In this document: piece by piece, positions 14,960-58,659 of the stretch
How the letters are laid out: every line of letters begins with the position of its first letter
Position numbering within the stretch: the first letter of the stretch is position 1
Source of the DNA: Amphiura filiformis
Taxonomy: Eukaryota > Echinodermata > Ophiuroidea > Amphilepidida > Amphiuridae
Direction of reading: 5' to 3'
DNA: 64,000 nt
Assembly (NCBI RefSeq): GCF_039555335.1
Contig: NC_092631.1
Span: 4,555,501-4,619,500, forward strand
The notes under the pieces: generated by a model
Seen by the model: only the letters and a program-made list of their open reading frames with translations
Database searches by the model: none
What the model was told of the DNA's origin: nothing
Translations under genes and position numbers: made by a program

Positions 14960-15779
14960 TTACACTGGTGGCTGCTTACTGAAGATATTCTTAGAGATGA
15001 ACATACTGGGTGGGAATAAAGCTTCCTGCGATTCCTGGAATATTTGACGTGTTTGAGATACGATGTCTGTAAAATAAAATCAACGAAAATTGTTATTTCG
15101 TTTGAAGGAATATAAAGTATGTCGTGGAGGTTATGTGATTACCAACAGGGGCGTCAAGCTACTCTATCTTCAACTTAAAACCTTAATGTACGATCTTTTT
15201 AAATTTTTAGATTTTTCTTTTTTTCTTCTAAAATGATAATATGCAATCATTATGAAAGTTCCCAATACATTTGGACGCGAAAAACATTGGGAATTTGCAA
15301 AGAAACAACATCATAAACTTCACCTCTATCACTCGAAACATATCGCACTATTTGGATCAGGACAGCGAGTGCGGCCTCAGAGTTAGTCTCCTACGCGGCC
15401 AGTTTGGTTACGCTCCCTCCACATGTGGAGGGAGCGTAACCAAGCTAGTTTTGTACGAGACTACGGTTTGCGATCGTGGCCGACATAAAGTCATAATCTA
15501 AAAAATTATGACTTTATGTCGGACCAACAGAATCGTCCTGTTTTACTACAAATAGGACGAATTTGACAGTTTGCTCATAGATTTAAGTTATAACATGTGT
15601 AAGTATTACAAATATGCCAAAAAAATCGGTTTTGAAAAAAATAAAGGTAAATTCTGAAAAAAGATCGTACATTATGACTTTAATCCTACAGGGCATCGAT
15701 TCTTTCGGTAATAGTCCCGACTCCATTAACATACCTTCTGTTTCCTGCTTGCATTCACCTTTCACTGGTGGCTTGATAT
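14960..15779 (-). CDS. Last two coding exons of the large gene
   Basis: Exon 15779-15735 encodes 15 residues (IKPPVKGECKQETE core). Exon 15066-14960 follows a TTTTATTTTACAG acceptor in the right phase and encodes 34 residues (IVSQTRQIFQESQEALFPPS...) ending at TAA 14962-14960. The tail matches no domain known to me. The fold-back element begins 3 bases beyond the stop, so the native 3' UTR is displaced by at least 3.08 kb or replaced by element sequence. Confidence 0.6.
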
Positions 15780-18700
15780 CTGAGGAGAATGATCAAACAT
15801 TTCCAGTACTTAAACCGGTACTTAAACATTCCAATTTTCATTAACATACTAGCATGAAAGTTCATCTGTATTGGTAAACTTCATAATTGGAAATTTAAAC
15901 TTATGATCTCAACACAAAATTAAGACGTACCTCAAATTTTCGGTCACAACTTTGACCTTCATCTGGAGACTGGCAACCCAAGTTTGGGATCAGTGACCTT
16001 TTGGACACTTGACTCCAAAACCCGGTCGTACACTCGATACAAGTTACCAAGAGTGTACGACGGGGTTTTGGGGTCAAGTGTCCAAAAGGTCACTGATCCC
16101 AAACTTGGGTTGCCAGTCTCCAGATGAAGGTCAAAGTTGTGACCGAAAATTTGAGGTACGTCTTAATTTTGTGTTGAGATCATAAGTTTAAATTTCCAAT
16201 TATTTTCATTAACATGTTTGAATCATCATAGAATAAATTATCAAGTATTTTAAAACTCGCAGGTGGTGAAGATTAAAAGCACCGAAAGACAAGTTATACC
16301 TGGTAGATGGTCTACTTCTTTCTCCGTGTTTTTCATTGTTGGTGCTCCTTTCTCTACTAACATGAAAATAAGTATATCAGATATAATAATGTTACCACAC
16401 TATTTTCTTAAGAACTATTTCATAGAATTACTTGTATTATGCAACTATTTTGTTCCGATTTACTTCAAGACATGTTCCCCTACTAGAGACGGTGCGATTA
16501 CACTGATAACGCGTATAACGATTTCGGTAAAAGAAGTCGCGTAGTATTTTAATACTACGCGACTTCTTTTAAATGGTCCATTTTCTGCATCAAAATTGAG
16601 ATTTGGTATCAGAAGAAAGCACATATTTATCTTGTTATCCAAGTGAAATTTAACGCCCGATATATTTTTTGTTTAAATGTTGTGAATCTGAAATAGAAAA
16701 CAGAATATAAAAATTAAGGGCACGCCTCTTTAAATTGGAACAAATAGTTTCATACGAAAAGTAGTTTTAAGAAATAGTTCTAAAGAACATAACGCCATTA
16801 CTATTAGTAATAAACACTTGTAGAATCGTTGGATATACTAGGCACTTCCATTTTTACCCTCTTTTCTCGCTGTGGTACTAAAGCTTTAATGGGTGGGCTA
16901 GATCATGAAAAACGAATTAGAGTTTTTCTTCACCAGGTCGAGCAGCTGGATATCTAAAACGTATATTTCTTAATATCAAGCCAACCTTTGGGTGTTTTTT
17001 TTTGTTGGCATTGTGGCCTTTGATCTTTATGGCCATGTTGCCATGGTTACGGGTTAGAAGAGATGGTGACTCTTTCATGGTATTGTGGCAGCGTTTGCAC
17101 CCAGTTGGTCCAATAAACATTATTACATAATTTTAATGTATATTTTCCGCGATCCCGTGGCTGATATGGTCGTCGAATTTCGAATGCGTGTCTTTGATGT
17201 ATGACGATGACAAATATAATCGGTAGCATCGTGTAGCAATAACTTCTGCACTATATTCCGTATGTTCCAATTCGATAGCCAGTAGACGAACCATTGCGAA
17301 AAACTCTATTCGCCGCAGAAGTGACTATGTAACAGGAATAACTACCATAGCAATAGGTTAAAACAATGTTTGAATATATCGCACTCATTAGTACGTTCAC
17401 ACGGTACCTCTGCATTGAACCATAGGGGTCATAAACTTTTGGAAAGAAACATTTTTGATGACCAAAATGCAGGGAGTCACAAGATGACCACAGATAGTGT
17501 GTGTATGTTATTCAAAAAGACTGATTTCAATACAATTTTAGCATGTTTAGGGGGTAAGGTGGTGGGGTCATAAAATTGTTGCCGAAATAGGGGGGTCGCA
17601 ATTTTATTGAAACCGAGTTTTTGTAAATATGGGACCCCCCTTCCGAAGAAAACGATAGCCCCAAAATATTGACAATTATTATCAAAAATATTGCACTTGA
17701 AGCCATTGTTAATGTGCTGTTCTGTGTTCAGTACTGTATTCCACCTGTATTGTCTTAAATAACTTTATGACTATTAAAAGGGCACTTCGTGATCCACAGA
17801 ATTTAGAATTTTCATTAACTCAATATTTGCTCAAGGGTGCCTTTTCTGAATCTACATACCCTCCTCTAATACCATGAATACTTGAAGCACAAAAATGCCA
17901 TTGTACGCGACTTCATGGTTTTACTGGATCTTCAATGATCTCTATCCTCGACTATATGATCGATCGACATGACCGAGTCGGTTTTCTGCTATTGTCTTCA
18001 TGTTTTGCGGACGCTTTGTTCGATTGTAGCATATGCTTGCTGTGGAGATTCAAAAGACGATACTCTAGCACTTGACATCAATATAAATAAAGAATAATCA
18101 TCATGATTGTAATTATTATTATTTGTATGTACCTGATCTTTTTTCCTTCTTGACCTCTGTCAGTTCTCTTATGATCACCGCATCTAATGTGTCATCTGTT
18201 GAGCAATTGAGTGCCTTTTTCAAATATTCCTCCGCAGAGTCTAGCTGCTGCAACCGATGACATGCCTAGATAAAATTCCAATAAAATCGAGTCAGAATGT
18301 CACATGTTATACCTATTGAATGGCCATACTTCTGGCTGGCAAGGAAGTATTTTAGATGTTCCTAGCTGGGAAAATCAAAATTTTAAACGCATTCTAGCTG
18401 GGTCTGAGGAGCAGTTAGTGTTGCTGAAAAATATCAATTTTTAACTAAAAATTCAACGTTTTATTCGCTTTTTCTCATCAAATAGTTTGAAATAATGACT
18501 ATAGCATCAATCATATGCCAAAAAAAGTAAGTTGACGGAAGTAAATGTGCCAAAAATGCAAATTTTACATGTTGTGTGGCCGTATCCGGAAATTCTCGTT
18601 GGGTGCTCCTGATATGTAATCTTGAACTGTTAAGGTTGTATTATGGCCATACATATAATCCTGGAAATCAGCGTTGAAAATTGCTTGAAAAAAAATCTGG

Positions 18701-21700
18701 TAACATATGATCATGATACGTGTATTATTGCCTATTATTCTAACACATTCAAACGAAACCAGAAGCATGTGATAGAGTATATACCATGTATACCGATTCA
18801 GAAGTCAAATTTGTAGTTTTCTGTGATTTGTCCCTTTTCAAATCGGCCAAAAAATTTCTCGACATGGGGCCTCCAGCCAACAACAAAAATAAAGACTCTC
18901 CTCTACATGTTCATGTGTTCAGCTTCATATAAAATGCCATTTTCGCCAAGTATTTAACCTTTATTTGACCGAAATCGGCCCAGAAATTTGCTCGATTCGA
19001 GGTCAAAACAGAATGTAAACAAACTGAATCAGCTCTGCTACACGTCTTCAACTAGTCGCTCTGCCTAACGATCTATTGTGGGTTGAAAAGCGTAAGTGTA
19101 GCGTCATGTAAAATAAGTACCCAGTAGATTTTGTTGAGGATATGTATAATGTAACTTACTCGACCGTGTCTAAACAATGCCTTAGCATCAAGCGGGTTTA
19201 TTTGTACCGATTTGCCACTGTAAATTAACGCCTTTTCAGGATCTTGTAACCTAAGAAAGCACTCTGCAATGTTTGAATAAATTTTCGGAATCATGTCGTC
19301 TTTTTTCTGGATATCTTTGGTAGATGAAGGCTGAATTGTATCCAATAGTTGTAATGCCTATATTGGAATGAAAGACAGACAAATATATATTTTAATTGAA
19401 TTAAATTAATATATTGGCGAGCATGGTAACGTGTAACTAGCAGTTCGTTGCAGTCTACAATCACACTTTTTAATATAAGTACATCGGCGTCAAAGCGACA
19501 GTCGGTTACAGATCGGCGTCAAAGCAACAGTCGGTCGAAGTGGAATTTATAAATCTAATGATATTTACTTAATGTTTGTAGCTGGGAGGAAAAGCCGACG
19601 ATCTTTTGAAAATTTTGATATTTCGTATTGAAGATCTAGATTTTTTTACCAAAACACCTAAACAATTAAGGTCTATTTCGGAAAAAATTGTGTATCTTCA
19701 ATACGAAATGTCAAAATTTTCAAATGATCGTCGGCTTTTCTTCCCAGCTACATACACTTTAAGTACATATCATTAGATTTATAAATTTTACTTCGCGGAC
19801 TGTTAAATATGAAAAATAGCAAAAATAGCAATTTGTAATAATTTGCATAAAATTTTTATTATATCAAATTTTTTAAAAAAAAATCAAAATTATTTGATAT
19901 CAGAAGGACATTTCTCGTATTCATAATACAATTGGGTCCCGGCGCACCAAACTGGTGTTGTAACTGCCCAATTGGGTGGATTAAAGCCGCTTAAAAATCG
20001 ATGTTATGTTGTATTGTGTTGTAATTTAAACTTTCATCATTCTATTGTCTACGTGTAACACGGGTGATGAAATACAGTTTAAAATCCCCGCCACGGACGC
20101 ATCATTTCATATTTTAGGTGGAATATGCCGAATAGCGAAGTTCGCTCTACCCGACGGGGACCCAGCTATGGCTGCCATTGAGGTGTAGGAATGCGTGAAA
20201 TTAGATTCGTCTATAAATTAACTTGCTTGAAGAAGTTACTTACATTTTCGTACTGCTCCTTAGCCAAGCCTACGTTTCCTTTTAAAATTGTGTTAAGAGC
20301 TTTCTGTATGTGAAACCAAGAGTCAAATGTCAATTGATGGGTACACTGCAAACAATTATCATTGAGCTAAAAAGGGAACAGAGCAACTAAATGAGTGAAT
20401 AGAACTCGATGGTGATTAACCTGTACTCAAATTGAGTAAAATATAATCAATATTCAATTCCATTTGACTCATTTTCTTGTTCTGTTCCCTTTTTACTCAA
20501 CATTGAGTAATGTTTACTAATTTTATATAGAGTTAATGGTTTGTGAAAACCAGACAAAATTATGAGAGAAAACAACATAGAATAAAGCAAACCTCCTTTA
20601 GACGGGTGGCGTTCAAAAGCGTTGCAGTAATTTGCTGTTGGTTTACTCCTGAAACAAATTGAATGCGTCAAATAAGCAAATATGTAAGATTATATACAAA
20701 TACAAATATACAAATACAATATACAAATTCAAAAGCTACAAATAGCAAGATATACCGTAAAACCCCGTCTACAAGCATATATAGTGTTTTTATAAAAGCT
20801 TAATTAATTCGAAGCAAGCGTTAATATGCCAATACAATAGATCGGTCTTAAAATAATACTTGTTTGTATATGCTTGGATCCGTAATTTATTTGCTCAAAC
20901 TCCATAATGGCGACTGGATTAATGTAGCTTTCATCAGAAGCACATTATATGCATGTAGACGGGGTTTTACGGTATAACTAATTGTAAAACAACGTGCGCC
21001 CGAAATTTAAATTCAAAAGAAGCAAGAAAACTTTGATGCAAATTATCAGTGGAGGGCGTCAATAATATTATATTCTTTATTGTAATTGTGATACAACTAC
21101 TTACATTATTTTCAATTGTGTACCAGAACAGTTTACAGCTAAGGACAATAATTAATGCACAAAAGTGCAACATAATGTCCTTGGCGTTTTATAGAAGATA
21201 CTTTTAATTGATAAATTATAATCAAAAGGGGTGTTTTAGAAAGTATAATAATAAAAAGAAAGGTTAGTGATCCCGTATAAACTTTGACCTAGGCAATCTT
21301 GAATTGTCTAGGGGTGACAATTCTGCTCTATTAATATCCTTTGTACCACCGGACTACATGTAGTAGCACATATTGGCTCCCCATGACATTCCTTTGTTAT
21401 TAGGATTGTACTTTAAATATCACAACACATCTTTGCGAATTGCAACCAAATCCACATTAATGCTCTAGACATGCTGGTCGTATAAGTAACAGTTAAGTTA
21501 TTGTTGCTAGCTTCATTTACCTACCTTCTGTTTCCTGATTGACGTCCATTTTCTTGGTTGGCTTTGTATCTGTGGAAAATGTTTAAGGAGGCTGTGTACT
21601 CTCAGACATGCATGTAGTAAAAGTGCAATAACTTTGTAATTATTCGCGCAAGACATATAAAAGTATACATTTTTATGAAGGCAAGACATCAATAAATCTT

Positions 21701-24700
21701 AATATAAATACAGATTTGGGGTAAAACAACAATTATGAAGAAAATCACAAAAAGTGAGTTTTTGGCAATATTTGTTAGGTACATCATAACAAAAAACACT
21801 CTTTCCAAAATATTTTATTTTGTTTTAGCTCAATCTTGAGGCTCCATTCCAAAAACGGTTTTTTATTTTTTGATATTGGCCTTATTTTTTGAGATATTGA
21901 CCATATAAGGCATCAAATTGAACTTTTAAAATTCACAAACGCCTATTTGCACAAAATGATGCCTAAAATCGGAAATAGACCAAAATATTTAAAAAATGAG
22001 AAAACCGTTTCTTGAGTCGATCATGCTTTTTACGATGATCATATTTGCTTACCTATAGATGCTGTATTTATTGAGTTATCGTGTACCTAAATCGTCATTT
22101 TACCGAGAAAATGAACATTGAAATAATGGCCGTTGAAGTTTAAAGTGGTCATATTTTGCACTTTCATCGAATCTCGCAGGAGAATGCGGCAGTTTTTATT
22201 TTTCTACCTTACATTACATAAACATCGGGTAAATCCACGGCCCCTTGAGAAGTTTGAGCGAAATCCATTCATAACTTGATATTTAAATCGGGGAAAGAAC
22301 TTGAAAAAACCCACATTTTATCAGCTAAAACGGAGCCATTTGACCACTAGGTTTTTGTGCTTCCGTGATGTTTCCATAAGATGCGCCGCGCATGCAGATA
22401 AGCGTCGCGTATGCGTAGCGTATTTGTGCGTTAACAAATTGCGCGATACGCAACGCGATGCGTTGTTGCGCGCGTGTACCCTGCTGGTACAACAAAGATT
22501 TTCTTTCCTTTTCAATTTCAAACACGATTGGAATAGTGAAATAAAATCCTTAAAATATTGCAGTTGGAGTTTACAAATCTGGATTTTCATTCCTTGTATT
22601 TATAAAAAACATAACAAAGTACAAACATATCAAAAAAACTCAATTTTGCGAAAGAAACAATGTCTATAGTACACAGCTGCCTTAATTTAATAAATGATTG
22701 GATTCATTATTTATAAGGATTCGGAGACTTTTTGGTAATCCTTTTGAGTATTAGATGATGTCACCATCGACAACAATGCTACACAGGGCGCAATATTAAG
22801 GCAGTTACGACCCGCTATCCCTAAGGACCGCTATCTCTAAGGTTCACTACACTAACGTGTAAATCAAATATTCGCTGTTTCTAATAAAGAAAAGGGTTCG
22901 CTATACCTAAAAAATGGTCCGCTGTGGTAAAAGTTTGGTCGTTATAAATATTTTCCAAATGTGGCAATCAAGCTTGATGTAAAAGGCCCAGGTTCGTAAT
23001 GTTATTGAGTATGCCTCACTATGCTGGATGAGTGCCTCAACCATGTACCACCACCCCGAAGCTCCTTGACTCCATACAGAGCAAAGCATTGAGGATTATT
23101 GGTGTTGACGAGCAGCAGGCAAGAATGGATCTTAACATCCCCTCTTTACATCACAGACGACAGGTGGCTGTTGCATCTGTGCTCTACAAGATGCACACTA
23201 GCTTGTGCCCTACAGACTTTAAAACATTGCTGCCCCAGCCTTACGTGATCAGACGAGCCACTCAAACCAGTCTCTCAATGCCAAGTCATGCACTGACTGA
23301 GCCAGTCTCAAGAACCTTGTCAACCGGCAGAACTTCCGTCCATTTTGCAGTCCATGTTTGGAATGGGATCCTAGACTGTGTAGTTGGTTGGAGAGATCAC
23401 TGATTATGGAGCTCAATCCTTGAAGAGCCGTGTACATCAACACCTTTCGGGATTATGATTTAGCTGAGGGTTCTTGTCACTCTTCGAAGCTGCTGTGAAC
23501 CACTGATTGGCCCATAAGGATTACATAGTGCCCTGTTGCCTATTTAAGTGCTCGACATGGTCATTCCTATTGGGCTATTGTTCACTTTGCATTTTATATA
23601 AAAAAACACAAAAATCCCTGCCTGTTACGCCTATAATTATCACATCGCAAAGATACTCACCAGCGCCAGATGTATCATAGGTGATGTTACCTGCAAAGTC
23701 GTGTTCTTCTTGGTATTCTTGTGCCAGAGGTGAATTTCGTGTGTCTAATTCACATTTAATAGCCTGGACATGCCCAGATGACTCTCCGTGACCAGTGACA
23801 GCGCTGATTTTGAAGTTGACACACGGGTTTTTATTAAACTTGTTCTTGGTGTTGCAACACATGTTGTGAATACGGCACAGAAGACAAAGCATACCCTCAC
23901 CTTCAACGTAGACCAGCCACCATATTCCTGAAAAATATTAACACCCAAAAAACTAAAAAGATTATCATGAAAAAGATCATGTGAGTATAACAAATATAGA
24001 CATTTTAAATTGTCACAAAGCGAGTATAAAAAGCTCAATCTTATAATAATAAATCTACCGGTTTTTTCGCAGAATGACGTTTTGTCAGCTGTTATCCATG
24101 TGTGCTTGAACATGTCTGCACTACGTTTCTTCTTAGTGGGATCTTTTCCAGACGTTCCTGGCTTTAGGTGACGAATTCGTTCCTTCTCCGTGTCTGGTAT
24201 GTCAGAACATGTCGTTGAACAAGTGTAAAAGCTGTGGAGCCGATTATCTTCAAAAGCAGTAGAAAAATACTCTTCCAAAAGCTTGCTGGCCTCCCCAGTT
24301 GATATAGGATTTGGCAATGGGTGGGTACTTCCAGAGTCTAAATTTAATAAATGCGAAACAAAGATAGAGAGCTTGTATACGGGAACATATAAATCTTGGA
24401 TTTTATTTGCAGCGACAACGCAGTTGTCAAATTTGGCAATGGGTGGGTACTTGCTGAATCTAATATATTAAATGTGAAGCAAAGTTTGAGCTTGTCATGG
24501 AAATAGTTTCACTGACATTTCAGTGATTCAAGACAAGTGGTTCATTACATATTTTAAGAAATGACGTACATTCTAGCGGTACCTCTTTTCTTATCATAAA
24601 TAACGTACCGCCTGTCTTGAGTCACTGAAATTCCAGTGTAGTAACTGGATTACTTGTCCCTATAATATACATAACTTTTGTTACCAGTGTGTTATCATTT

Positions 24701-25230
24701 TTTGAGAAAAATGCAAAAATATTCAATAACCTTCCTTAACATTAGAACTACTGAGCCATATTATATTACACGGACTACGAAGGGGGGTCTTAATTAAAAT
24801 CATCATGCATCGTTATATTTGGTACTAATCTCTATCCAGTGGTACCAAACATTTCTCATATAATATCAATATGACGTCATAATATGAGCGCACCCTGGCA
24901 AAATTGTGAAATTCTGACTATGTACAAAAGTATGGGCAAAATTTATTCTACAATCCTACTAACCAGTAGACTTCGGTTGTATATATAAATGCGCTTTTAT
25001 AAATGCGCACGTGACCAGATGGCCAGCGCCATATTTGCATTACATCACTGTCAATCACTGAAATGGCGACCATTGAAGGAGTGGCTACAGTTGTGACCTT
25101 GTTTCGTGGCTAGCACTGGCAAGGAACATTGGCTGGAGGTTCGATGCTATAAATTTGCAAGGATAAATCATGGATATCAAAGGATCATGATTATTGCACA
25201 GCACCCCCCATGTACAAACATAACTAATGT

Positions 25231-25285
<55 letters not shown>

Positions 25286-31200: not shown

Positions 31201-34200
31201 TAACATCCCGGCTACGCCACTGGGTTTTGGGAATGCTCGTAATAAAAGAGCTTGTAAGTTGTAAATATATAATAGTTAAGGAGAAGGAGAATATGATATG
31301 ATATGATATGATTTTATTAACCTGCACAACATCGCGGCCAAACGGCCGAATTGCATTATACAAGAGACAATAAACAAATATTATGAAAGAAATCAATTAC
31401 ACATAATTATAAAGCAAAAAAAGAAAAAAAGGCAACTTGGCATGGAAAAACAGCAGAGAGATGCAAAAGGGCACAATGGGAAGCCACCAGCGCACAAGCT
31501 ACTACTTCTTATTCAACAGATTAATGTAGTAGGGAATGGGGCTTACAGCAAATCTGCTTGTGCATAGGGACACCAATAAACATGCTTTACCTTGTCCTTG
31601 ATCAGCAGGATTTTGGAATGAAATCTTCGCCGCAACACTTTGCAGGTTCCTTTTAACGGCACTCGTGTGGTTCTCTCGGTCTTGACTGAGTTCTTGTAAC
31701 TTCTCACATTTTTCCTGAATCTCCTTTTTGATTTTGTCGATTTCTTTATCAGCATCAGCAACCGATTCTCTTGCATAGGGCCTGCACTTTGGCTCGACAT
31801 TTGAAAGGGGCGTGAATTCATTTTTGGATACGCCCCTATTATAATTAGGTAATACTCGACTCACACACATTCCCTATTATGTATATACATGTACCACATG
31901 TAGTAAATCTGTCTGCTTTATCTGTATTGTGCCGTTCTTAAGCAAATAGTTAAACACGATTTCATCAAACATTATAACAATAGCTCTTTTACAGTGTGCA
32001 ATCATCCCGGGCAATAATTTGGCAATAATAGAGGATGTGCGTGAAATTATTGATTGGCTCCATACAAAGGATTTGAACCGGTGTCCTTCACCGTAATCAT
32101 GGCGCAATGCAGTGCATTCAATCAAACGTTGTCGTCAACCTATTTGATCGTATAGTGCATTAAATTTGTTATGTGTGTGAGACGAGCTGTCGCGGTAGAT
32201 TGCAATAGCTTGTAATCATGCTTTTGTTGAATGAATTTGAGTACTCCGCCATATTTACGGTATGCTACGTCATAATCTAGGTGATTATTTGCATTGGATG
32301 TCTTGAATACGCTGGCAAAGTTGTGTAATAATCGGACTAATGCTATAACAGTAGGTGAATACAAGTATTGAATATAGGCCTATCGCGTTGCAAAGCCCAA
32401 TTCAGTGATCCCAGCGAAAGTGAAAAAAAAAATCAAATTGTTACTTTTATACAAATTTTTAATGAAAAAAATTGGCAAAAAACCCAAGAAAACGGCAGTA
32501 TCGACGAAGTTGAAGCCTCATTCAAATAGGCCTACATGTAGCTAATTTATATACTGTCTGTAATTACAGATTCACGTAAATGCATTATTTTTGTCTTCTT
32601 TTGTGGCGAGTGACAAAAAAAGAATTCAAAAGATAACATCTGCCCCAACAATCCCAAGCAATTGTCTGAAACTGCTTTTCGGATGATGTATCATAAGAAC
32701 TCAGTCGTCAAATGATGATAGTCATATAATGACCAAAAGATTATTACTGACTACTATATCATTGAAGACTGAGTTCCGCAGTACAAAATCTGAATTTTGA
32801 TGATTTTTACGATCGTCCAGATGAAAAAATCACTCCTCTCCTTACCTTGGCAATATGAATCAAAGAAAAATAAAGAAAAAAATAAATAAAACAAGAAAAA
32901 AAAGACAAAGAAAAGAAACAATAAAAGAAAAACATATATGAAAAGTTCGAACAATATTTGGTTTATAAAATTAATGTGACCGTGATGAGGCTCGAACTCA
33001 CCACCTTCCGATTTAAAGTTCGAAGCGCTCGTGAACAAAATTCTGATGCCTTACCAAGTGAGCTGTGCTCCTGAGATACGAAATAAAAATAAAATAATGC
33101 ACTGTATACCCGCTTGTGTCGGTAATTGATTTGCTCATATTCCATAATGGTACAGTGCAACAGAGCAAAAATGCCCATAATTTAAAAGCTATATAATTTA
33201 TGAACAATATACACTACACATAAAAATACTAATACAAGGGCATTTCAACATAAGAATCCAAACAATTAAGTATCAACATGCACAGCTTTGTCCTTATATC
33301 ACATTTGGGTTTTTAACCAAATGTTATCAAACCTCTACTGTGATTGACAGCTGCACAAGGCATCTCTTTGATAGCTGATAATGGCCATCCATTCAGCAAG
33401 TGGCTACTAACTGACCTTGACAGGCTTGAATGAGCACTGTCATCTGCTACAAAACCATCACACTCTAGGTTTGACAATGGAGTGAAAGACTATTATTATT
33501 GATTAGGCGCGGATTTTAAAAGTACAGCTCCTATGCGTGTATAGCAAAAAATTGGAATAGAATGTTTGGAGTCATGTAACTAAGATACTAAATGCATTCT
33601 GCAAAATGTGCTTTATCTGACCAATTTATAAAGCATTTCATTAGCTTTAATTTGACACATTGTTTGACATGTTTGGAATTATGGTAAATCATTAAATAAA
33701 ATATTTATTAATTAATCAATTATGTCAATTAATTAAAAATTTAATGCAAATATGCATATTTTCTCTGACAGAATTGTAGGATTTGACAAGAGCCATTTTT
33801 CTTTAAGTTTGATTCTTATAACATACCGGTATCGTATTGCGTCCCATTATAGTTACAGAAAAAATACGCGTGCAGGACACACATACGCACACCTACACAC
33901 ACACACCCAAAGGATCGTACCGTTTTACAATCGTATAACATTCTTTGGCGCTAGTAGTAGTAGTAGTAAATTCCAATTTTCTTTGCTTTACCTCACTTGT
34001 TCTGCTCAAAATTAAAAGGGGACATATCTGACAGTAAAAGCTTACATTTTATGGAAATTATGTTTAACTATTTGTTTAAACAGCACAAAACAGATAAAGC
34101 AAAATTACTATACATAGGACTATACATGTATGGTATGCCAGGGACTGTTTAAGAATATATCATTAGATTTATGATATTTACTTCGAGGACTGTTATATAT

Positions 34201-37200
34201 CAAAAATGTGAAAAATATCAAATTTTAATAATTTGTCATAAAATTTGTATTATATCATAAATTTCAATGAAATTTATTTGATATCAGAAAGACATTCTTC
34301 GTATTCAGAATGCAATTCGATATGTCTGATGTGCTCTCATGTCCCACAAAAAATACTATCGAAACGCTCAAAACGCTCATTCCAGATCCCTTAAAGTCAT
34401 AATGTACGATCTTATAATATGAATTTGGTTAATTTTTTCAAACCTGATTTTTAGCATATTTGTAATGTTTACAACTTGCACCTAAATGGAATCAGCCAAA
34501 TTGCTTGTGTTTGTAGCTAAATAGATAATAATAATTTTTTTCATCCCGACGATCGTAAAAATCATCAAAATTCAGATTTTGGATACTAGACTGCGGAACT
34601 CGGTCTTCAATGATAGTCAGTAATTTTTATATTTTGGACATTACTATGACTATCATTTGAGGACCGAGTTCTTATGATCCGAGGAGCAGTTTCAGACAAT
34701 TGCTTGGGATTATTGGGGCAGAGGTTATCTTTTGAATTCTTTCATGACCACTGAAGCATAGTCAAACCTGTCAAGGACACTCGGCGTGAATTGAAAGACC
34801 ATGTCACTCGCCACAAAATAATGTCAAAGGTCATAAAACACCAATTTGGTCATTTGGTGTCTTCTGCTAAATAAAGGCCTTATATGGCTGATTTTGTACC
34901 TTTCGTCATTGTCATATATGTGCTAACAAAGCTTGCTAGTGCAGTGGTTCAGCCGAAAGTCGTGTGTCTAAGGCAAAAAATAATGCATTTACGTGAGTCT
35001 GTAATTTATATACCGGTACTGACAGTATATAAATTAGCTACATGTATTTGAATGGGGCTTCAACTTCGTCAATACTGTCGTTTTCCTGTTTTGTTTTTTG
35101 CCATTTGTTTTCATTAAACAAATTTATAAACGTAACAATTTGATTTTTTTTTTTTTTTTTCGCTGGGATCACTGAATGGGACTTTGTAGCGCGGATTATT
35201 CAAAACTTTTTTTTACCTACTGCTATATATATAGTATTAATCCGATTATTACATAACTTTGCCAGCGTATTCAAGACATAGGTTATGTAAGGGATAAACT
35301 GTACATGGGTATAGAGGCCCTGCATGCTTTTATTGATTGGCTCCAAACAAAGGATTTGAAAAGTGTCCTTCACCGTAATAACGGCGCAGTAGCCTACAGT
35401 CCATTCAATCAAATGTTGTCAGTGTGCGAGACGAACGATGTATAAATCTGGAGGTCACATCATCACTTATCATGCTTATTGTAAAAAGTTTGTCCAATGC
35501 ATATACTGTGTGTAGGCCTATTGTTCCCGGGTATTGTCAATGCAATCAAGCAAACAGGTATTATATTTTGAAAAGGCCGCTATAGTATATTCACATGGGT
35601 GTCTTGAATGGCCAATCATATGGGACATAATCAAATTGCAGTGACTGCTTCCTTTGTTACCACATGTCAGTCATCTTGTGATTATTGGACCATGTAAACC
35701 TGCAAAAAACGAGCCAAAGTGCAGGCCCTATGCCTGCGTTAGGAACTGGACTAGTGACGTGGGTACCGGTGGACGATCTATTGGTTTGCTTGTCTCAGCC
35801 TCAGTTGTTGCTTCGGCGCTCTGGGTAGCAGCCGCTTGCTTTCCTGTGTCTGCGGAGACATTTTGAAGATATCATATTATCAGATAATATCACATAATTA
35901 TGTGCAATATAAATAATGAGCCCAAACGGCGTGCCACCTGCTTGCCCCTTCGGCCTGCCAAAAAATCTTGTGCTACCCTCTTTGCACATGCCAAATATGT
36001 TGGGTGCCAATTTGCGAACCTTAAATAGCGTCGCAAGCAGGAAATTTTGCATATTTGAACGTTTCTATAGTGTTTTCCTTTTTAGAGCATGCTATTTAAA
36101 AGGTGCCCGTAAATCTGTGCGGACAATCGCTTGCTCCCCTTTTGATCTGCCAAAAATTGCTTCCCCGGCTTGCCAACACTCACCCATTTTACCCTCCAGG
36201 GCTCATAATTATTCCACAGCTCTTAGCAGGTAACTTGACCCAATTTATTTGTAGTACCAACACTAGCATTCTAACCCCCCAAACTAGCATTCTAACCCCC
36301 CAAACTAGCATTCTCCCATCTTTAATCTTTTGAGGATGGAACGCAAGAGGGGTGTTGTTAGCTTGATGGCTTATGTCCATTAAGTTACGGACGGACCAGG
36401 GTGGCCAGGAGAGGAGTGTCTCGCCCGCCTGGCTAAACACAGAGCGAAACTGATTCACATTGAAGCGCCACAACAGCACCAGGGTTAGAGCCCCTGATTA
36501 CTACAACCCGCCTGTTCAACCATTGGGCCTGCACAAGACAGAGCAGAATGAAGCAACAACTCCAAAGCCAATCGGAAGATATGATGAAGTTCCTAGAGCA
36601 GGGGTTTCACCATGTCGATCCCTAATTGGAAGAGCTGCTGCAGATAAACCGAAGGAAAGAAAGGCACTTTTAACTACTAAGAGTATAACTGGAATAGGGA
36701 CATGGAATGTACGTACACTGTACCAATCAGGAAACCTTGAACTTTTACTTCACCAGCTCAATAAATTCAAATGGGAGATTATTGGAGTTTCTGAAACACA
36801 TTGGACAGAAAGTGGAGAATTTACAACAGAAGGATACCAAATTTTATGTTCTGGGTATACAGATATTCACAGAGCAGGAGTTGCCCTTATACTAAATAAG
36901 GTGGCACAACAATCTTTACTGGGGTACAACCCGGTATCTTCAAGATTACTCTCTGCAAGATTTAAAACTGTCACTGGAGCAATGACAGTAATTCAAGTGT
37001 ATGCTCCAAACATGGCAGACAAGGAAGAAGATGTTGACCAATTTTAAGACCACCTCCAAGTGCTAATTGACAGCACACCAGGGGGAGACATGCTGATAGT
37101 AATGGGAGATCTGAATTCAAAAGTTGGAAAAGACTGGCAGAAATGGAACACGGTGATGGGAAGATATGGATATGGTGATACCAATGCTAGAGGTGAAAAA

Positions 37201-40200
37201 CTGCTAAGTTTCTGTGCAGCCAACAATCTCCATATTACAAACACAATGTTCAAACAAGCCAAAGATTCCCGCCAATGGACACGGGAATCCCCTGATGGAA
37301 AGACTGGAAATAAAATAGACTATGTAATGTTAAACAACAAGTGGAAGACAAGCATCTCAAACTCCAGAAGTTTCCCAAGCGCAGATGTTGGTTCCGACCA
37401 CCAGCTTGTAATATCCAACCTCAGGATCAAATTCAAAAAGAAACAGAAAGCACCATTCCAGAAGCGGTATGATGTCTTTAAACTCAAAACAGACTCAGTC
37501 AAACAGGATTATGAAGTTACCATTGGAGGTAAATTTGCACTACTAATGAATCTTGATACAACAGATGTTGAAGACATATGGACGGGTGTAAAGATAGCCT
37601 TCAATGACACATCAAATGCAGTTTTAGGAAGCAAAAAATCAAACAAACAAGAACAATGGATAAGTGAAGAAGTGATACATCTCAGCGAGGAGAGAAGCAA
37701 AGTGAAACTCAAGAAACTTGAAGACCCATCTTTGAAACCTAGGTACAACTATCTCAACCGAGAGATCAAAAGGAAAACAAAGGGATGTAAAGACATGTGG
37801 ATCCAAGGACTTTGCACGAAAGTGGAGAAGGCGCACCAAGCAGCTAAGTCAAAAGAAGTCTATGCCACAATTAAAGTAATCACAAAGAAACCAACCATCA
37901 GAATGCAGACCATTAAAAGCAAAGATGGCAGAGTCTTAACAGAACAGACGGAGGTGAAAACCAGATGGAAAGAAAATTATGAAGAACTGTGTAATGAAGG
38001 ATACCCAGTAAACCTGGAAGTAACAGAAGCACTACCACAGATGCCAACGACAGACAACGAACCAGAAATAACCAAAGAGGAAGTAGCATCAGCTATAGAC
38101 AAACTTAGAGAAGGAAAGGCCCCTGGCTTTGATGCTATCCAGGCTGCATGAGAAGGAGGCACAGACATAATTCACAAACTATGCAATATAATCTGGGAAA
38201 CAGAGACATTTCCAACAGACTGGGGGAAAGCAATAATCACCCCAATATATAAAAAGAAAGACAAACTCGACTGCGGGAACTATCGTGGAATCAGCCTGCT
38301 TAGTCATATGGGTAAAATCCTAATGATTATTAGAGGAGGATTTTTAAGAGAACTGAGGAGATATTATCCGAAGCGCAGGCTGGATTTAGACCAAATCGAT
38401 CAACCGTAGACCAGCTGTTTACACTACGACAGATCACTGAAAAATACCTGGAAAAGAATAAAAACTTGTACCTATGCTACATAGACTTCTAAAAAGCATT
38501 TAATTCCATCTGGCAAGAAGGACTATGGAAAGCAATGAGGTTCTATGGATACCCACAGAAGATCATCTGCCTACTGAAATCACTGTATGAAATATCACAG
38601 AGTGCCGTGAGAGTCAATGGAGAACTGACCGACTGGTTCCACACAAAAGTTGGTGTGAGGCAAGGTTGTGTGATCTCGCCACAGCTTTTCAACATACTTC
38701 TGGAACTAGTTATATCCTCAGCACTAGAAAATGAAGATGGAGGAGCAGTTATCTCTGGCTTCAAAATAAATAATCTTAGATTGCGGATGATAATTATAGT
38801 TCTAATAGCAGAATCACCAGAAGAACTACAAACCCTGGTAAACCAAGCATACAACGAAAGCAGCAACTATGGACTCAAAATAAATATTGCCAAAACACAA
38901 GTTCAAGCCATTACCAAATATAACAACAGACTGGATATTAAAATTGGAGGAGATAAGCTGGAACAAGTAAAATCATTTGTGTATCTGGGCGGCACCATAT
39001 CTGGAGATGGGACATGTGAGGAAGATGTGAGGCACCGAATCAGCAAAGCAGTAGGTGCAGTTCAAAGTCTCCACAGCATCTGGAAAGCAAAAGACATCAA
39101 GCAAGACACCAAATTACAATTGTACCAAACACTCATCCTCTCTGTATTACTATATGGATCAGAGACCTGGACCCTCAGAAAGCAGGACGAAAACAGGCTT
39201 CTGACTTTCGAGATGGCATGCCTCCGCCGAATTGCTGGAGTCACCAGACTAGATAAAATTCGTAACCAGGCTATCCGGGAAACCCTAGGCAAAGAACACA
39301 CAGTTTTAGACACTATCTCAGAAAGAAGATTGAAGTACTTTGGCCACATTAAAAGGATGGAGACAAACAGATATCCAAAGATAACCATTGAGGATAAAAC
39401 ACATGGAACAAGACCAAGAGGAAGACCAAGTAAAAGATGGCTGGAGTGTGCTAAAGCAGATGGGCAAGCAAGAGGAATACCAACCCTAACTGGCAGGCTA
39501 ACAACCAACCGAGGCAGATGGCAGAACATTGTGAAGCAGAAGCCATCACACAGCCCACTGCTGGTGTGGACGGCATAAGTACGAAGTAAGTACCAACACT
39601 TATCATTCTTTAGCCCTTATAGTTCATTTGAGGTTGTAGTGTGACCCGTGAATTACATTTCAGTTTAAATATGCAAATCAGGTTGCTATATTTTACGATA
39701 TGCAAATGAATTTGCGGAAAGTATGAAATAAGGAAATATTTACCTTTGGGGAAGTATTTGAGTCCTTTTTTATATTCTTTCTCTTCTATGTCAACACTGA
39801 TATCAAACTTCTTGCAGAGGCGCTTGGCAAAATGTTTCTCATTGATCACCATAGTTTTCAGCATGTCCTTAACTTTCTGGCTCTTGTTAAACATTTTCCA
39901 AAGGTTTTGTAGAGCCTCTCTTGAATCATAGCGGACGACAAACACGATGCATGGCCCTGGGGTGGATCCAGAGAATATCTGCATCAATGTTCCTCCTCCT
40001 ACTTCAGCAAAGCCTTGTAACAGGTCAGTGATCAGTGTAATAGGAGACTGGATTGTATAAAAGGGATAAAGCACATTGTATTATCATTATTATGTTCTAC
40101 GAACCTAGGTGTTTCAACAATGCTATTAGCTTTTTTGTATGACGCCCTCTCCTTTTGTGTCCACCATATTTTAAAAAAGACTTTCCAGAAAACAAAGTAG

Positions 40201-41591
40201 CATCATAGGCCTTCAGAAGGCATATGATAGACCTTCAAAAGGCCTATGATATAATGAATTGGTGTGTTTTCACAATTCTTAAAGAAAAAACATTGAAAAT
40301 CAAATTATGAAAATTGTTTGCAAATTACATTTATTGACAATCCTGATGATTTTGCAGGTTGAGTTCTGAAAATATTCAGGATGTGGTCTGATATAGACAA
40401 TGCGCATTATTTTGCCTTACAGGGCGTCCGAATGGAAACATTTGAAAACAAAGGTCAATTATAATTATCCATTATTCACCTTTATGTCAAATCTAGGAGC
40501 ATCTATTGTGTCAACTTCCTCGTGTAACGTCTTAACAAGTTGATGCATCTCTTTGGCCTTCTTGGTTCCTTTCTCTATATCAAAAATACACGCTCTGATT
40601 TCCAGATCTATGGAGAGAAACAGTAAATATTTCAGCTTTTCAAAAGCACCGACTGGTCATTCTGGCACCGACGTAATACATGCAATTTCTATCTCCTAGC
40701 ATGAAATATATATTTTTCTTCCATGCCTCCTATCATGCCTAGGGCCCGCGCCCGAGCATGCATGGCCCGGGGTGAACACTTTTATATGCCAGCACATGCT
40801 AGGGCGCGATAAAACAAAGTCAAAATGAGACATATCTGAGCTCTATTGAATGTCCCAAATTATAGAATTTAGAGGAACTTGTGAGGTTCTGACTGCAAAT
40901 ATCGTTTAAACTTTCCGTGATCTTCTGGTCTCTTCAAAAAGAGTTTTAGAAGAGCTGTTTGCACCTGTGGCCATTACAGAAGAATTTAACGAGTCATATT
41001 CTAGAGGAGCTATAAATCGCTCTTGCAAATGCAACTTAAGAAAAGCTGTAGAGGAGTGATTGCTCTCGCTTCTCTCAAATGGCAGTCCCTGTAGCTAATA
41101 ATAATATTTATAATAGTTACAATGCAACATTTAAAAGGGCATTTCGTGATCCACAGCCTCATCCCCCACTTTTCTCAAAAAAAGTTGAGATTTTATATCA
41201 CTGGAATACTCTGGCTACATAATGTTTATGTACAAAATATTTCTTGCAGATTAATTCGTTTAGCAAAGATATCTTGAAATTTGAATTTCGTTCTGGTGCA
41301 CCAGAACGAAATTACAACGTATTGTCTATGGAGCAGTGTAATACACATAACTCGCAAAAGCAAAATCGGAATCAACTGAAATTTTGGGAATATGCTTTTT
41401 TCGTGGATATGTACTGAAAAATGTCATAAAAAGAGGATGCTAGGATCACGAAATACTCCTTTAACTTACCGAAATACTTGGCTTCATCCTCGGACTTATT
41501 ATTTCCTTTATCCAGTGTACCATTGCTGCTATCACTACTGGTACCACTTGTCAACGTCGCAGCCATTTTGGCTATCAATAGGCCTACACAA
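14960..41591 (-). CDS. Predicted TRADD-N / zinc-finger / TPR adaptor protein gene (about 17 coding exons)
   Basis: Assembled by eye from AG/GT boundaries and phase on the minus strand. Exons 5' to 3': 41591-41470 (ATG 41566), 40607-40480, 40047-39744, 35849-35767 (uncertain 3' end), 31767-31591 (uncertain 5' end), 30562-30503, 29470-29435, 27202-27056, 24337-24059, 23927-23661, 21569-21525, 20648-20593, 20303-20244, 19357-19160, 18265-18133, 15779-15735, 15066-14960 (TAA). Phases agree at every junction except around the two uncertain exons, and most interior exons are phase 1-1. The product is about 740 aa, cytosolic by lack of signal or membrane segments. Domains: TRADD-N-like (about 33-176), Thr/Ala-rich linker, coiled coil, basic linkers, CxxC/HxxxxxH finger, clamp-type TPRs, short C-terminal tail. 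TRADD-N domains occur in human TRADD and in invertebrate death/immune proteins, so a signalling adaptor role is inferred. It could be two genes; transcripts would decide. Confidence 0.7.
15183..15683. mobile_element. TTAA-flanked element, family D
   Basis: TTAA at 15183-15186 and 15680-15683. The right end, read inward, is TTAAAGTCATAATGTACGAT. The left end is TTAATGTACGATC and lacks the AGTCATAA box. The interior holds two hairpins: an imperfect palindrome at 15383-15462 centred on CCTCCACATGTGGAGG, and CCGACATAAAGTCATAAT/ATTATGACTTTATGTCGG at about 15480-15522. The same terminus recurs at 34392-34560. Confidence 0.6.
15883..16203. repeat. Nearly perfect 321-bp palindrome
   Basis: Two arms of about 150 bases (starting ATAATTGGAAATTTAAAC) are almost identical in inverted orientation. 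They are separated by a spacer of about 15 bases near 16034-16050 (GATACAAGTTACCAA). It lies inside the last intron region upstream of the 15735-15779 exon of the minus-strand gene. High arm identity suggests a recent fold-back insertion. Confidence 0.85.
16528..16571. repeat. Perfect 44-bp palindrome
   Basis: TAAAAGAAGTCGCGTAGTAT continues into its exact complement after a TT|AA centre. It has no loop and is intronic with respect to the large gene. Confidence 0.8.
16572..18132. other. Intron sequence with minor repeat remnants
   Basis: At 17560-17660 is a G/C-rich remnant with TTCCGAAGAAAA...AGCCCC similar to 26150-26210. At 17774-17810 is one end of TTAA family C (TTAAAAGGGCACTTCGTGATC). 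No further exon is supported. Confidence 0.45.
18133..20648 (-). CDS. Carboxylate-clamp TPR domain exons
   Basis: Exons 20648-20593, 20303-20244, 19357-19160 and 18265-18133 join in phase. They encode a three-TPR-like array. Repeat 1 contains ILKGN..LAKEQYENAL. Repeat 2 is IYSNIAECFLRLQDPEKALIYSGKSVQINP. Repeat 3 is AKALFRHGRACHRLQQLDSAEEYLKKAL, with a capping helix IIRELTEVKKEK. The K..N of repeat 1, N of repeat 2 and K...R of repeat 3 sit where Hop, FKBP-type and UNC-45-type TPRs hold the C-terminal EEVD carboxylates of Hsp70/Hsp90. Chaperone docking is therefore a reasonable inference. Donors are GTTTGC (weak), GTAAGT, GTAAGT and GTACAT. Confidence 0.75.
19545..19935 (+). mobile_element. 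Truncated family B element
   Basis: Central part of the family B MITE (4231-4779), including the hairpin AAAATTTTGA(T/C)...TATTGAAGAT and its complement, and the ATTTGATATCAGAA...ACATT...CGTATTCA segment. Neither TTAA terminus is present. Confidence 0.65.
20753..20974. mobile_element. Mariner-like MITE, 0.22 kb
   Basis: Inverted termini TACCGTAAAACCCCGTCTAC begin and end the unit, with TA at both borders. The outer parts of the arms also pair (AAGCATATA). It has no coding capacity and is intronic in the large gene. Confidence 0.75.
21525..21569 (-). CDS. 15-codon mini-exon, paralogous to the exon at 15735-15779
   Basis: Phase 1-1 exon with acceptor TTTTCCACAG and donor GTAGGT, encoding TKPTKKMDVNQETE. 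The exon at 15735-15779 has identical length, phase and a very similar product (IKPPVKGECKQETE), which indicates exon duplication on either side of the TPR exons. Confidence 0.6.
21583..22685 (-). mobile_element. TTAA-flanked element family A, copy 2 (inverted)
   Basis: TTAA at 21583-21586 and 22682-22685 with the family A termini; the sequence is collinear with the reverse complement of 453-1542. Its left border is 13 bases from the first base of the 21525-21569 exon, so it supplies everything upstream of TTAAACATTTTCCACAG in the splice acceptor. Confidence 0.8.
22795..22935. repeat. Degenerate CGCTAT..CTAA repeat patch
   Basis: The words CCGCTATCCCTAAGG, CCGCTATCTCTAAGG, TTCACTACACTAACG, TTCGCTGTTTCTAAT and TTCGCTATACCTAAA recur in a row at irregular spacing, like a decayed short-period tandem repeat. 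Function is unknown. Confidence 0.5.
22985..23462 (+). pseudogene. C-terminal fragment of a LINE polyprotein
   Basis: Plus-strand reading contains RNVIEYASLCW, LLDSIQSKALRIIG, LNIPSLHHRRQVA, VLYKMHTSLCP and HVWNG, the region after the RT thumb in CR1/Jockey-like elements. Frame changes near 23045 and the absence of RT upstream show a dead fragment. It sits antisense in an intron of the large gene. Confidence 0.75.
23661..24337 (-). CDS. Zinc-finger-like exons (TTF/C17orf113-type pattern)
   Basis: Two phase 1-1 exons separated by a 131-base intron. Exon 24337-24059 (93 codons) ends in a basic stretch (KDPTKKKRSADMFKHTWI) leading into FCEKT. Exon 23927-23661 (89 codons) continues IWWLVYVEGEGMLCLLCRIH and later ISAVTGHGESSGHVQAI. 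The CxxC pair and the HxxxxxH pair with aromatic WW/Y lead-in match the single TTF/BED-like finger of C17orf113-type proteins, usually found next to transposase-derived or chromatin domains. Boundaries are TTTAG/GTAGAT and TTTTTCAG/GTGAGT. Metal binding is inferred. Confidence 0.65.
24507..24645. repeat. Short fold-back (TTTCAGTGA.TCAAGACA arms)
   Basis: TTTCACTGACATTTCAGTGA...CAAGACAAG on the left pairs with CTGTCTTGAGTCACTGAAATTCCAGTG on the right, with about 65 bases between. Intronic. Confidence 0.5.
24945..26625. mobile_element. DNA element with inverted ends, 1.68 kb, containing a (TTTA)n tract
   Basis: Arms of roughly 75 bases share TAGACTTCGG(T/G)TATATATA, AAATGCGC and TTTATAAATGCGCACGTGAC in inverted orientation (24950-25015 and 26545-26620). 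The interior includes the simple repeat at 25230-25287 (TTTA repeated about 14 times). No transposase is seen. Confidence 0.5.
27056..30562 (-). CDS. Linker exons of the large minus-strand gene
   Basis: Three phase 1-1 exons. 30562-30503 (20 codons) is basic: KKASKRKTQ. 29470-29435 (12 codons) reads EPEKQKVKKSDK and could add to a nuclear-localisation-like patch. 27202-27056 (49 codons) is Ser/Thr/Asp-rich, has a TAATAG acceptor and a strong GTGAGT donor, and reads SDTDTSSCADSDKPAENTQ. No domain is recognised; they look like a flexible, basic-then-acidic linker between the coiled coil and the zinc finger. Confidence 0.55.
27337..27523. mobile_element. Fold-back MITE, 0.19 kb
   Basis: Arms around CAGTCAGCGGCACTAGCTTTGA and GCTACGTTAGCTTAGC pair with TCAAAGCTAGTGCGCTGACT and GCTAAGCTAACGTAG. 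The loop contains GATCGCGCGCG. Intronic in the large gene. Confidence 0.65.
27524..29152. other. Intron sequence
   Basis: No exon that fits phase 1 was found. Around 27595-27720 there is a GC-richer stretch without recognisable structure. The plus-strand short ORF at 28622-28831 shows no motifs. A short (AAAT)n-like run lies at 29042-29062. Confidence 0.35.
29153..29200. repeat. Hairpin, 18-bp arms
   Basis: AAGTATAACCTATAATA and its complement TATTATAGGTTATACTT flank a short AT loop. Intronic. Confidence 0.6.
29502..29909 (+). other. Open reading frame of unknown status (135 codons)
   Basis: The longest non-transposon plus-strand ORF in this intron. I recognise no domain, signal or membrane segment. 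It could be a chance ORF or part of a repeat; there is no splice or expression evidence. Confidence 0.15.
30170..30252 (-). pseudogene. Small LINE RT fragment
   Basis: Minus-strand reading SVPQGAILGPHMFSVFIDEL is the conserved RT motif around the VPQG box. Nothing else of the element is recognisable on either side. Confidence 0.6.
31290..31315 (+). repeat. (ATATG)n microsatellite
   Basis: About four to five units of ATATG, followed by ATTTTATTAACCTGCAC, a pattern often seen at retroelement 3' ends. Confidence 0.6.
31591..35849 (-). CDS. Probable single exon (linker plus coiled coil) split by a 4 kb element
   Basis: The upstream half (35849-35731) follows a CCGCAG acceptor and reads DTGKQAAATQSAEATTEAET... 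up to the element edge, where the next codon is the TAG of the element terminus. The downstream half (31775-31591) is open from the other edge and reads ESVADADKEIDKIKKEIQEK..., a clear heptad-type coiled coil, then a GTAAAG donor in phase 1. The two halves differ by one base from a perfect in-frame join if 8 bases of target are removed. Possible rescue splice sites exist (GTACCC donor at 35766; AG within the element terminus), or both halves may be skipped, since exon 3 and exon 6 are phase-compatible. Confidence 0.5.
32045..32140 (-). repeat. SINE-like tRNA-derived head
   Basis: On the minus strand GGTTCAAATCC is a perfect Pol III B box, preceded by GGTGAAGGACACC. A direct, more decayed copy (B box lost) is at 35334-35440. 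Confidence 0.45.
32985..33085 (-). repeat. SINE-like tRNA-derived head
   Basis: Minus strand: AGCTCACTTGGTAAGGC resembles an A box and GAGTTCGAGCCTC a B box, about 60 bases apart, within a tRNA-like unit. It is followed at 32870-32940 (plus strand) by an A-rich tract. No anticodon arm that would make a functional tRNA is evident. Confidence 0.5.
34146..34395 (+). mobile_element. Right half of a family B element
   Basis: Matches the right half of 4231-4779, from ATCATTAGATTTAT to CATTCCAGATCCCTTAA; its TTAA at 34392-34395 is shared with the start of a family D terminus. Confidence 0.65.
36060..36335. repeat. Repeat with GGCTCATAATTATT end and short tandem array
   Basis: Segment ending GGGCTCATAATTATTCCACAGC (near 36200-36222) matches a segment at 60080-60225 in inner words such as TTGGCA/TGCCAAAAATT. 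At 36255-36320 the unit CATTCTAACCCCCCAAACTAG is tandemly repeated about three times. Confidence 0.55.
36335..39600 (+). mobile_element. Nearly full-length RTE-type LINE, inactive
   Basis: One plus-strand polyprotein: endonuclease with TWNVRTLYQSG, GVSETHW, GDLNSKVGKD, NKIDYVM and GSDHQLV, then RT with GNYRGISLLS, QAGFRPNRSTVDQL, VGVRQGCVISPQLFNI and the C-terminal LYGSETWTL...YFGHIKR...RGRPSKRW. Defects: stops near 37045, 38149 and 38491, a frameshift near 38330, and loss of the catalytic YADD, where the expected LRYADDIVLIAE reads LRLRMIIIVLIAE (about 38777-38812). It is antisense within an intron of the large gene. Confidence 0.85.
39744..41566 (-). CDS. Coding exons 1-3: TRADD-N-like domain
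   Basis: Exon 1 encodes a Ser/Asn-rich N-terminus (MAATLTSGTSSDSSNG...). Exons 2 and 3 encode an alpha/beta domain: strand LEIRACIFD, helix KKAKEMHQLVKTLHEEV, then LITDLLQGFAEVG, strand PGPCIVFVVRY, helix SREALQNLWKMF, helix KVKDMLKTMVI, and a final strand FDISVDIEEKEYKKGL. This order and the pattern of a hydrophobic strand followed by REAL..LW...(K)....ML match the N-terminal TRAF-binding fold of TRADD and its invertebrate relatives. Donors are GTAAGT (41469), GTGAAT (40479) and GTAAAT (39743). The ATG follows a good acceptor (TTTACAG at 41592), implying a 5' UTR intron. Confidence 0.7.
41131..41464. mobile_element. TTAA-flanked MITE family C, copy 1
   Basis: TTAA at 41131-41134 and 41461-41464. 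Termini AAGGGCATTTCGTGATCCAC and, read inward from the right, AGGAGTATTTCGTGATCCTA. The central palindrome TTTCGTTCTGG|TGCACC... is at about 41286-41311. The right TTAA occupies positions +6 to +9 of intron 1 of the large gene, leaving its GTAAGT donor intact. Confidence 0.85.
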
Positions 41592-42246
41592 CTGTAAACA
41601 AATAACGTTTATAACGACATAAACTAGGCTTATTATAATAAAATACAATAAAGTATAAACTACTTGCCTTTATAATTCACTTAGTAACTTCCATTTTATA
41701 CTACCCGTTTCTGAAACGGTCGGCGCCTTTAAACATTTTAAAATATCGGTATTAACATAGAGACATAGGCATACGTTAAAGTAGCTTTTGTTTGTTTGTT
41801 TACCCAGGTTGGTCCGTGAGGAACACATGCTAATCCATGGAAAACCATGGACCGTTCCAAGCTCATACAAATGCACAAGCCTGGATAGCCAGTGTAGGCT
41901 AATATATGCATGCTGGCCTAGATAGCTTTGATAAACAAAGCAAGAAATGGAAGAAAATAGCTAGGAGAAAGAGAAAAGAGAGAAGGCCACTCCCAAACAC
42001 AATTGTACAATTTTACTCTTAGCCCTTACTTCGTGAGAAAGGAAACTGGAATTCCAATCTCAGGCCCCGATGCAAAGGCTTTAGCATATTATACTTTTAG
42101 TTTTATCTTTCTTTCCTCCCTTTTCATACATTCAAAGTTTGCCCGCCTATTTTGCTTTCCTAATCTTAAACATAATAATTATGATGTAAATTTGTAAATA
42201 TTACACAAAAAACCTAGTGTATGCCAATATTAAACTATCTACTTAC

Positions 42247-42330
42247 ATTGGCGCTTCGCTTGTAGTCTCTCAACTGTTATTTGTTGCAAGGAACAAAGGT
42301 CGCGAATACTATTAACTATAGCACCGTGAG
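42247..42330 (-). other. Possible 5' non-coding exon of the large gene
   Basis: A strong donor (CCAAT|GTAAGT, intron starting at 42246) on the minus strand lies about 650 bases upstream of the acceptor at 41592 that precedes the ATG exon. The upstream limit is unknown. It could be an unrelated exon. Confidence 0.35.
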
Positions 42331-43679: not shown

Positions 43680-44094
43680 AAAATTGTGAACCAGAAATAT
43701 TTTATGTAGTCAATGCACTAGGCCTACTATTTAGACTCAGATATTGTTAACTTAATTTAACAGTGTGTTTTGTTGTGCATTCTGAAGTGAATTTGGGAAA
43801 AAGGTGTTTTTGCCTTAAGTCATTAACGACTTGTAACACTATATTATACCAGAAATGAGTTGTGAAATTGACCATAAAAACGAATAAAAACAGCCGGCTC
43901 TCAACACGCGATATGCAAAATTCCCGCGCCGAAATTGTCTATAGCAATGACGTCATGATTACTTGTGCTCAATTGTTGCAAGCCTTCGTTTTTATGGTCA
44001 ATATGAGTTTGTTTCAAACAAAACCACGTGATTAGTGCTTGATAATTAATTTTCTATATGGCATAATGTTGTGATTGCCGGAGACATCCTTTAA

Positions 44095-48839: not shown

Positions 48840-48866
48840 ATGGGAAATTATGCCTACCATTTAAGC

Positions 48867-58630: not shown

Positions 58631-58659
58631 CGCTTCACGCTGGTATTTCTAATTATGAT

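Follow-up and report, generated by a model that had tools for sequence, protein, structure and literature searches.

Gene organisation

The 64,000-nucleotide stretch of the Amphiura filiformis genome analysed here (contig NC_092631.1, positions 4,555,501 to 4,619,500; hereafter the window, numbered from its first base) carries on its minus strand a predicted gene of 17 exons, which runs from an ATG at 41566 to the end of a TAA stop codon at 14960 and comprises 720 open codons and the stop (Table 1). The modules encoded are, in order, a TRADD-N-like domain, a coiled coil, a C17orf113-type zinc finger and a tetratricopeptide repeat (TPR) array. A preliminary description, made from the sequence alone, had placed a multi-exon gene here, and its exons do join in frame without a stop. 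All 16 junctions are in phase and the internal exons are bordered by AG and GT. Phase 1 accounts for 12 of the 16 introns, phase 0 for the other four and phase 2 for none, though several linker exons were chosen for their fitting phases and this tally is therefore no independent test of the model. The GC content of the exons is 42 percent overall, that of the window 32 to 42 percent per 4-kb block.

Three observations at the margins of the model were made by eye. The upper limit given in the preliminary description, 41591, is the first base past a candidate acceptor, 25 bases upstream of the ATG; a possible alternative last exon lies behind a good acceptor at 16640-16685 (minus strand); and the intron after exon 3 contains, on the opposite strand (36454..39578, plus), a sequence resembling a non-long-terminal-repeat retrotransposon, with endonuclease and reverse transcriptase open frames.

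Table 1. Exons of the gene model and the element that interrupts exon 4
Feature	Position	Strand	Remarks
Exon 1	41470..41566	-	Start codon, 32 residues; upstream candidate acceptor, first exon base 41591
Exon 2	40480..40607	-	Phase 1-0; lead-in of TRADD-N-like domain
Exon 3	39744..40047	-	Phase 0-1; TRADD-like_N match PF20694
Exon 4, left half	35734..35849	-	Acceptor CCGCAG, 95th percentile among AG sites
Inverted-repeat element in exon 4	31773..35733	.	3,961 bp
Exon 4, right half	31591..31772	-	Coiled coil; 17-exon model takes 31767-31591, poor acceptor
Exon 5 (E4b)	30503..30562	-	Small linker exon, phase 1-1
Exon 6 (E4c)	29435..29470	-	Small linker exon, phase 1-1
Exon 7 (E4d)	27056..27202	-	Linker exon, phase 1-1; better-scoring inner acceptor at 27166
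Exon 8 (E5)	24059..24337	-	Phase 1-1; finger lead-in
Exon 9 (E6)	23691..23927	-	Phase 1-1; zf-C17orf113 finger; alternative in-phase donor at 23661
Exon 10 (E7)	21525..21569	-	Micro-exon of 45 nt; copy paired with exon 16
Exon 11 (E8)	20593..20648	-	Phase 1-0; TPR start; weak donor
Exon 12 (E9)	20244..20303	-	Phase 0-0; TPR repeat 1
Exon 13 (E10)	19160..19357	-	Phase 0-0; TPR repeats 1-3
Exon 14 (E11)	18133..18265	-	Phase 0-1; TPR repeat 3 and following helix
Exon 15 (E12)	16300..16353	-	Linker exon, phase 1-1
Exon 16 (E13)	15735..15779	-	45-nt micro-exon, 32/45 identical to exon 10
Exon 17 (E14)	14960..15066	-	Last coding exon, ends TAA

The zinc finger and the TPR array

The finger is matched by the Pfam family zf-C17orf113 (PF25431) over residues 412-468 of the model, at 37.7 bits (37.7-40.2 over the scans) with a cut-off of 29.5, and the CxxC and Hx5H motifs named in the preliminary description are both present, as CLLC and HGESSGH. 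Exon 8, which leads into the finger, is open for 93 codons, a length expected by chance, from the stop frequency, in about 0.4 percent of cases per frame. The beginning of this exon is repeated in tandem as a short copy at 24431-24460 (minus strand), in which 9 of 10 residues are alike. Like other C17orf113-type zinc finger proteins, the predicted product has a CxxC...Hx5H finger above the Pfam cut-off, which here is joined to TPRs and a TRADD-N-like domain. A literature search for C17orf113 found nothing, and one for 'TTF-type zinc finger' together with tetratricopeptide returned plant papers.

The TPR array, also recognised beforehand, exceeds the cut-offs of three Pfam families within residues 567-629 (TPR_8, 32.7 bits against 25.7; TPR_12, 32.9 against 30.1; TPR_2, 30.8 against 27), while the best unspliced TPR scores are 15-17 bits. 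The TPR_12 match spans the junction of exons 13 and 14 and scores 15.1 bits unspliced as against 32.9 bits spliced, so that this particular join is supported. In phmmer searches the top ranks were taken by designed TPR proteins; FKBP51 was aligned over all four TPR exons, cyclophilin 40 over three and CHIP over two.

We take the carboxylate clamp of this TPR to consist of a Lys and an Asn in TPR1, an Asn in TPR2, and a Lys and an Arg in TPR3. Four of these five residues are kept (those of TPR2 and TPR3 were placed by eye), the Asn of TPR1 being replaced by Leu in the alignment to 3rkv. The Hsp-docking type proposed earlier thus holds for four clamp positions, and the chaperone control that was attached to it was read from these same residues. 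Both the lost Asn and the poor donor of exon 11 (score -0.8) count against the overall interpretation preferred below. In comparison with the carboxylate-clamp cochaperones FKBP51/52, cyclophilin 40 and CHIP, the array is related in sequence, but no PPIase or U-box match was found by Pfam in the model.

The N-terminal domain

The identity of exons 2 and 3 as a TRADD-N domain, as judged from sequence comparison and modelling, is plausible but unproven. In its favour, the Pfam profile PF20694 (TRADD-like_N) is the top match and is covered from position 7 to 68 of its 69 positions, and a low-confidence structural model has the helix-strand-strand-helix order expected for TRADD-N. According to section 8 of PMC8195603, the beta2-beta3 turn of TRADD-N domains holds a small residue, mostly Gly, and a conserved Ser, sometimes Cys; at that turn the low-confidence model has PGPC, in which, by eye, Pro replaces the usual small residue and Cys occupies the position of the conserved Ser/Cys.

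Other results weigh against the assignment. The PF20694 match scores 14.9-18.1 bits (18.1 on exon 3 alone), below the cut-off of 23.7; a reversed control reached an E-value of 0.0039 with another family, near the 0.0024 observed. The structural model has a pLDDT of 53.7, and of its 310 Foldseek matches at E ≤10 none was at E ≤0.001, the list being a mixture that includes KH, ribosomal, methyltransferase and RRM chains; TRADD is absent from the best 50 of the 310 and from the best 50 of a second list, which tells little. A sister profile was prepared from 20 of the 23 matched cyanobacterial TRADD-N places, omitting L015, L035 (partial) and L030 (identical in sequence to L029). Exon 3 went undetected by it (0.4 percent probability in hhalign), and the N-terminal 176 residues scored 0.8 bits in hmmsearch, where shuffled sequences reached up to 8.2. 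Finally, no Death-type domain was found by Pfam in the 17-exon model. Upstream, the minus strand likewise gave none, in all three frames over 41561-56260 and in one frame out of three over 56261-63998.

We consider it unlikely, though with an appreciable chance, that the N-terminal part is another RRM/ferredoxin-like domain, or an unrelated one, carried by a finger-TPR cochaperone of different function, a reading that may overlap with the other alternatives considered below. The sub-threshold PF20694 score, the negative cyanobacterial profile and a second weak match, to DUF6854, over the same stretch all favour it, whereas the rank and coverage of PF20694, the order of the predicted secondary structure and the turn Cys do not. 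Of the features named in the preliminary description, the TRADD-N domain is more weakly supported than the exons, the finger and the TPR array.

Searches for relatives were made more widely. In phmmer against the PDB, the N-terminal 176 residues matched nothing under E 0.15. In collections without eukaryotes, exon 3 gave 136 pattern stretches in genome contigs, none of them a relative, and no match to plasmids by tblastn at E 10; the full 720-codon model gave four stretches in viral contigs, again with no relative. The same PF20694 profile has members above the cut-off in 18 of the 386 genomes of the phylum of the genome (G006) that carries the Nodosilinea locus L009. An attempt to force exon 3 into the cyanobacterial TRADD-N alignment yielded no sensible register.

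The coiled-coil exon and its inserted element

Support from the sequence for the coiled coil is modest, the best heptad register having hydrophobic residues at 10 of 17 a/d positions. The acceptor of the coil exon at 31767 lies only in the 34th percentile, because exon 4 is interrupted by a 3,961-bp element that the preliminary description, although it noted the coil, had missed. This element is bounded by terminal inverted repeats of 24 bp, which match perfectly, and its inner arms are about 80-83 percent identical (gapped blastn); each of its ends carries a GC, which could have arisen by duplication of the target or could belong to the repeats. The outer flanks look coding, with a good acceptor at 35849 and a frame that is open up to the element. 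When the element is removed and GC counted once, exon 4 becomes an exon of 300 bases and 100 open codons, of phase 1-1, that reads into the coil; for equally long random excisions the frame was open in 151 of 20000.

With the element present, the frame entered at 35849 is closed by a TAG within the repeat, and an AATAAA lies at 35334, inside the element. Exon 4 is symmetric, so its skipping keeps the frame. Transcripts of the element-carrying haplotype should therefore be either truncated or rerouted, yielding either a product with TRADD-N alone or a transcript that skips exon 4 in frame, and an element within a symmetric exon provides a natural test case for the survival of a gene after insertion. 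A decaying gene, that is, a pseudogene in this haplotype, would account for the insertion and its in-frame stop, as well as for the poor donor of exon 11 and the missing clamp residue; we consider this quite unlikely, since the remaining exons join without frameshift or stop and the interrupted exon can be skipped in frame, though it may overlap with other alternatives.

One gene or two

The preliminary description held that splice sites and phases link the domains. They do give an in-phase gene model, and single-gene status is read from the compatible phases. The finger-TPR side is tied to the tail by the duplicated micro-exons 10 and 16, which flank the TPR and are each other's sole match at a level of at least 28/45 on both strands of the window. 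For the linker exons between the TRADD-N-like domain and the finger, chance was gauged by counting candidate phase 1-1 exon acceptors, at the same splice thresholds, on the gene strand, on the other strand and in the flanks. Stricter thresholds gave five acceptors on the gene strand against one on the other (flanks 1, 0, 1 and 1). The looser ones count against a single gene, with 10 against seven (flanks 2, 1, 1 and 3); two of these 10 gene-strand acceptors (33892 and 28706) fit nothing in the model and that at 37291 sits opposite the retroelement. The linkers are not clearly above chance, which leaves some probability for two genes.

Under this alternative, which we regard as somewhat unlikely, an upstream TRADD-N gene, with or without the coil, would end at about 35.7 or 31.6 kb. 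The neighbouring finger-TPR gene downstream would start independently, one candidate being the Met in exon 8 that lies 32 residues ahead of the first Cys of the CxxC motif. Phase-1 borders are compatible even across unrelated genes, and the stop and the AATAAA inside the element, like the internal Met and the counts for the linkers, would suit such a division; against it, exon 8 is open for 75 codons upstream of that Met, and the phase-1 donor at the end of exon 4 demands a further exon.

Modules lying between phase-1 introns are a classic mark of exon shuffling. Here each module is so bounded (TRADD-N, exons 2-3; coil, exon 4; finger, exons 8-9; TPR, exons 11-14), and this pattern suggests that the gene was assembled in that way. 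On balance, we think it somewhat more likely than not that the locus is a single minus-strand animal gene, exon-shuffled via phase-1 introns, that belongs to the broad class of lineage-specific marine-invertebrate TRADD-N adaptors.

Relation to known systems and a possible function

TRADD-N domains have been tied to immunity and apoptosis, and marine invertebrates are described as having large, species-specific expansions of them, with highly varied partners that include TPRs, with retrotransposon associations and, usually, with a Death-type domain as partner; retrotransposition is proposed as the source of at least part of this diversity (Kaur et al. 2021, PMC8195603). Like the DEDD2 and NCOA6 clades of that paper, in both of which TPR fusions are known, the present gene specifies a variable animal protein of several domains whose TRADD-N-like domain sits close to the N-terminus, and it has retroelement remains nearby, but it differs from them in its sub-threshold TRADD-N match and in having no detected Death-type domain. 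It also keeps introns around its modules, which points to shuffling, whereas the paper in part proposes retrotransposition. In the passages of PMC8195603 on which we draw, no C17orf113-type finger is named as partner, although its supplementary tables may list the exact architecture. With vertebrate TRADD the gene would share an N-terminal TRADD-N-type, RRM-like fold; no Death domain was found in it, and it has a finger and TPRs in addition.

The statement that no standard protein has this order therefore overstated the novelty, given the varied marine-invertebrate TRADD-N fusions already published (PMC8195603). The mixture of finger, TPR and TRADD-N-like domain appears instead to be an uncommon combination in a class already known, that of rapidly diversifying immune proteins of marine animals. 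The suggested role as an innate-immunity or apoptosis adaptor is supported in part: it fits the domain order of the gene model and the literature on TRADD-N, and is weakened by the sub-threshold match, by the dependence of the single gene on compatible phases and by the derivation of chaperone control from four of five clamp residues.

If the single gene is accepted, the TRADD-N-like domain and the coil would provide switchable adaptor assembly, the target bound by the finger would be a nucleic acid or a protein, and the TPR, which is of FKBP/CHIP-like type, may dock Hsp90 or Hsp70 by the C-terminal tail. Such docking would keep the adaptor under control until a trigger binds. A bolder version, which we advance as improbable speculation, is a chaperone-gated TRADD-N immune switch, in which an Hsp90/Hsp70-docking TPR and a transposon-type finger joined a TRADD-N adaptor through the shuffling of phase-1 modules; the finger would sense foreign or mobile nucleic acid, the chaperone would set the threshold, and symmetric exons would permit isoforms lacking the coil or finger, as well as tolerance of the element in the coil exon. 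Should one transcript contain all modules, a cochaperone-type domain and a finger would be added to the animal TRADD-N repertoire. This would parallel the setting of thresholds by chaperones and cochaperones in bacterial conflict systems (PMC8195603), and would point to phase-1 exon shuffling as a second route to an architectural diversity ascribed at least in part to retrotransposition in the same paper.

Other features of the window

Further retroelement remains are reverse-transcriptase-like open frames at 1427-3115 (plus strand, by eye) and matches to RVT_1 above the cut-off at 13505-13912 and below it at 30079-30297 (both minus strand). No tRNA was found in a search of the window. Tandem arrays occupy 12010-12601 (163-bp units) and 58726-59418 (145/292-bp units). 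A weak Ephrin_rec_like match (48882-48947, minus strand; 17.8 bits against a cut-off of 23.1) lies close to 49211-49852, where an open frame of 213 codons is found, and an intronless open frame of 351 residues at 7826-8878 (plus strand) encodes a rhodopsin-type G-protein-coupled receptor (7tm_1, 105.1 bits).
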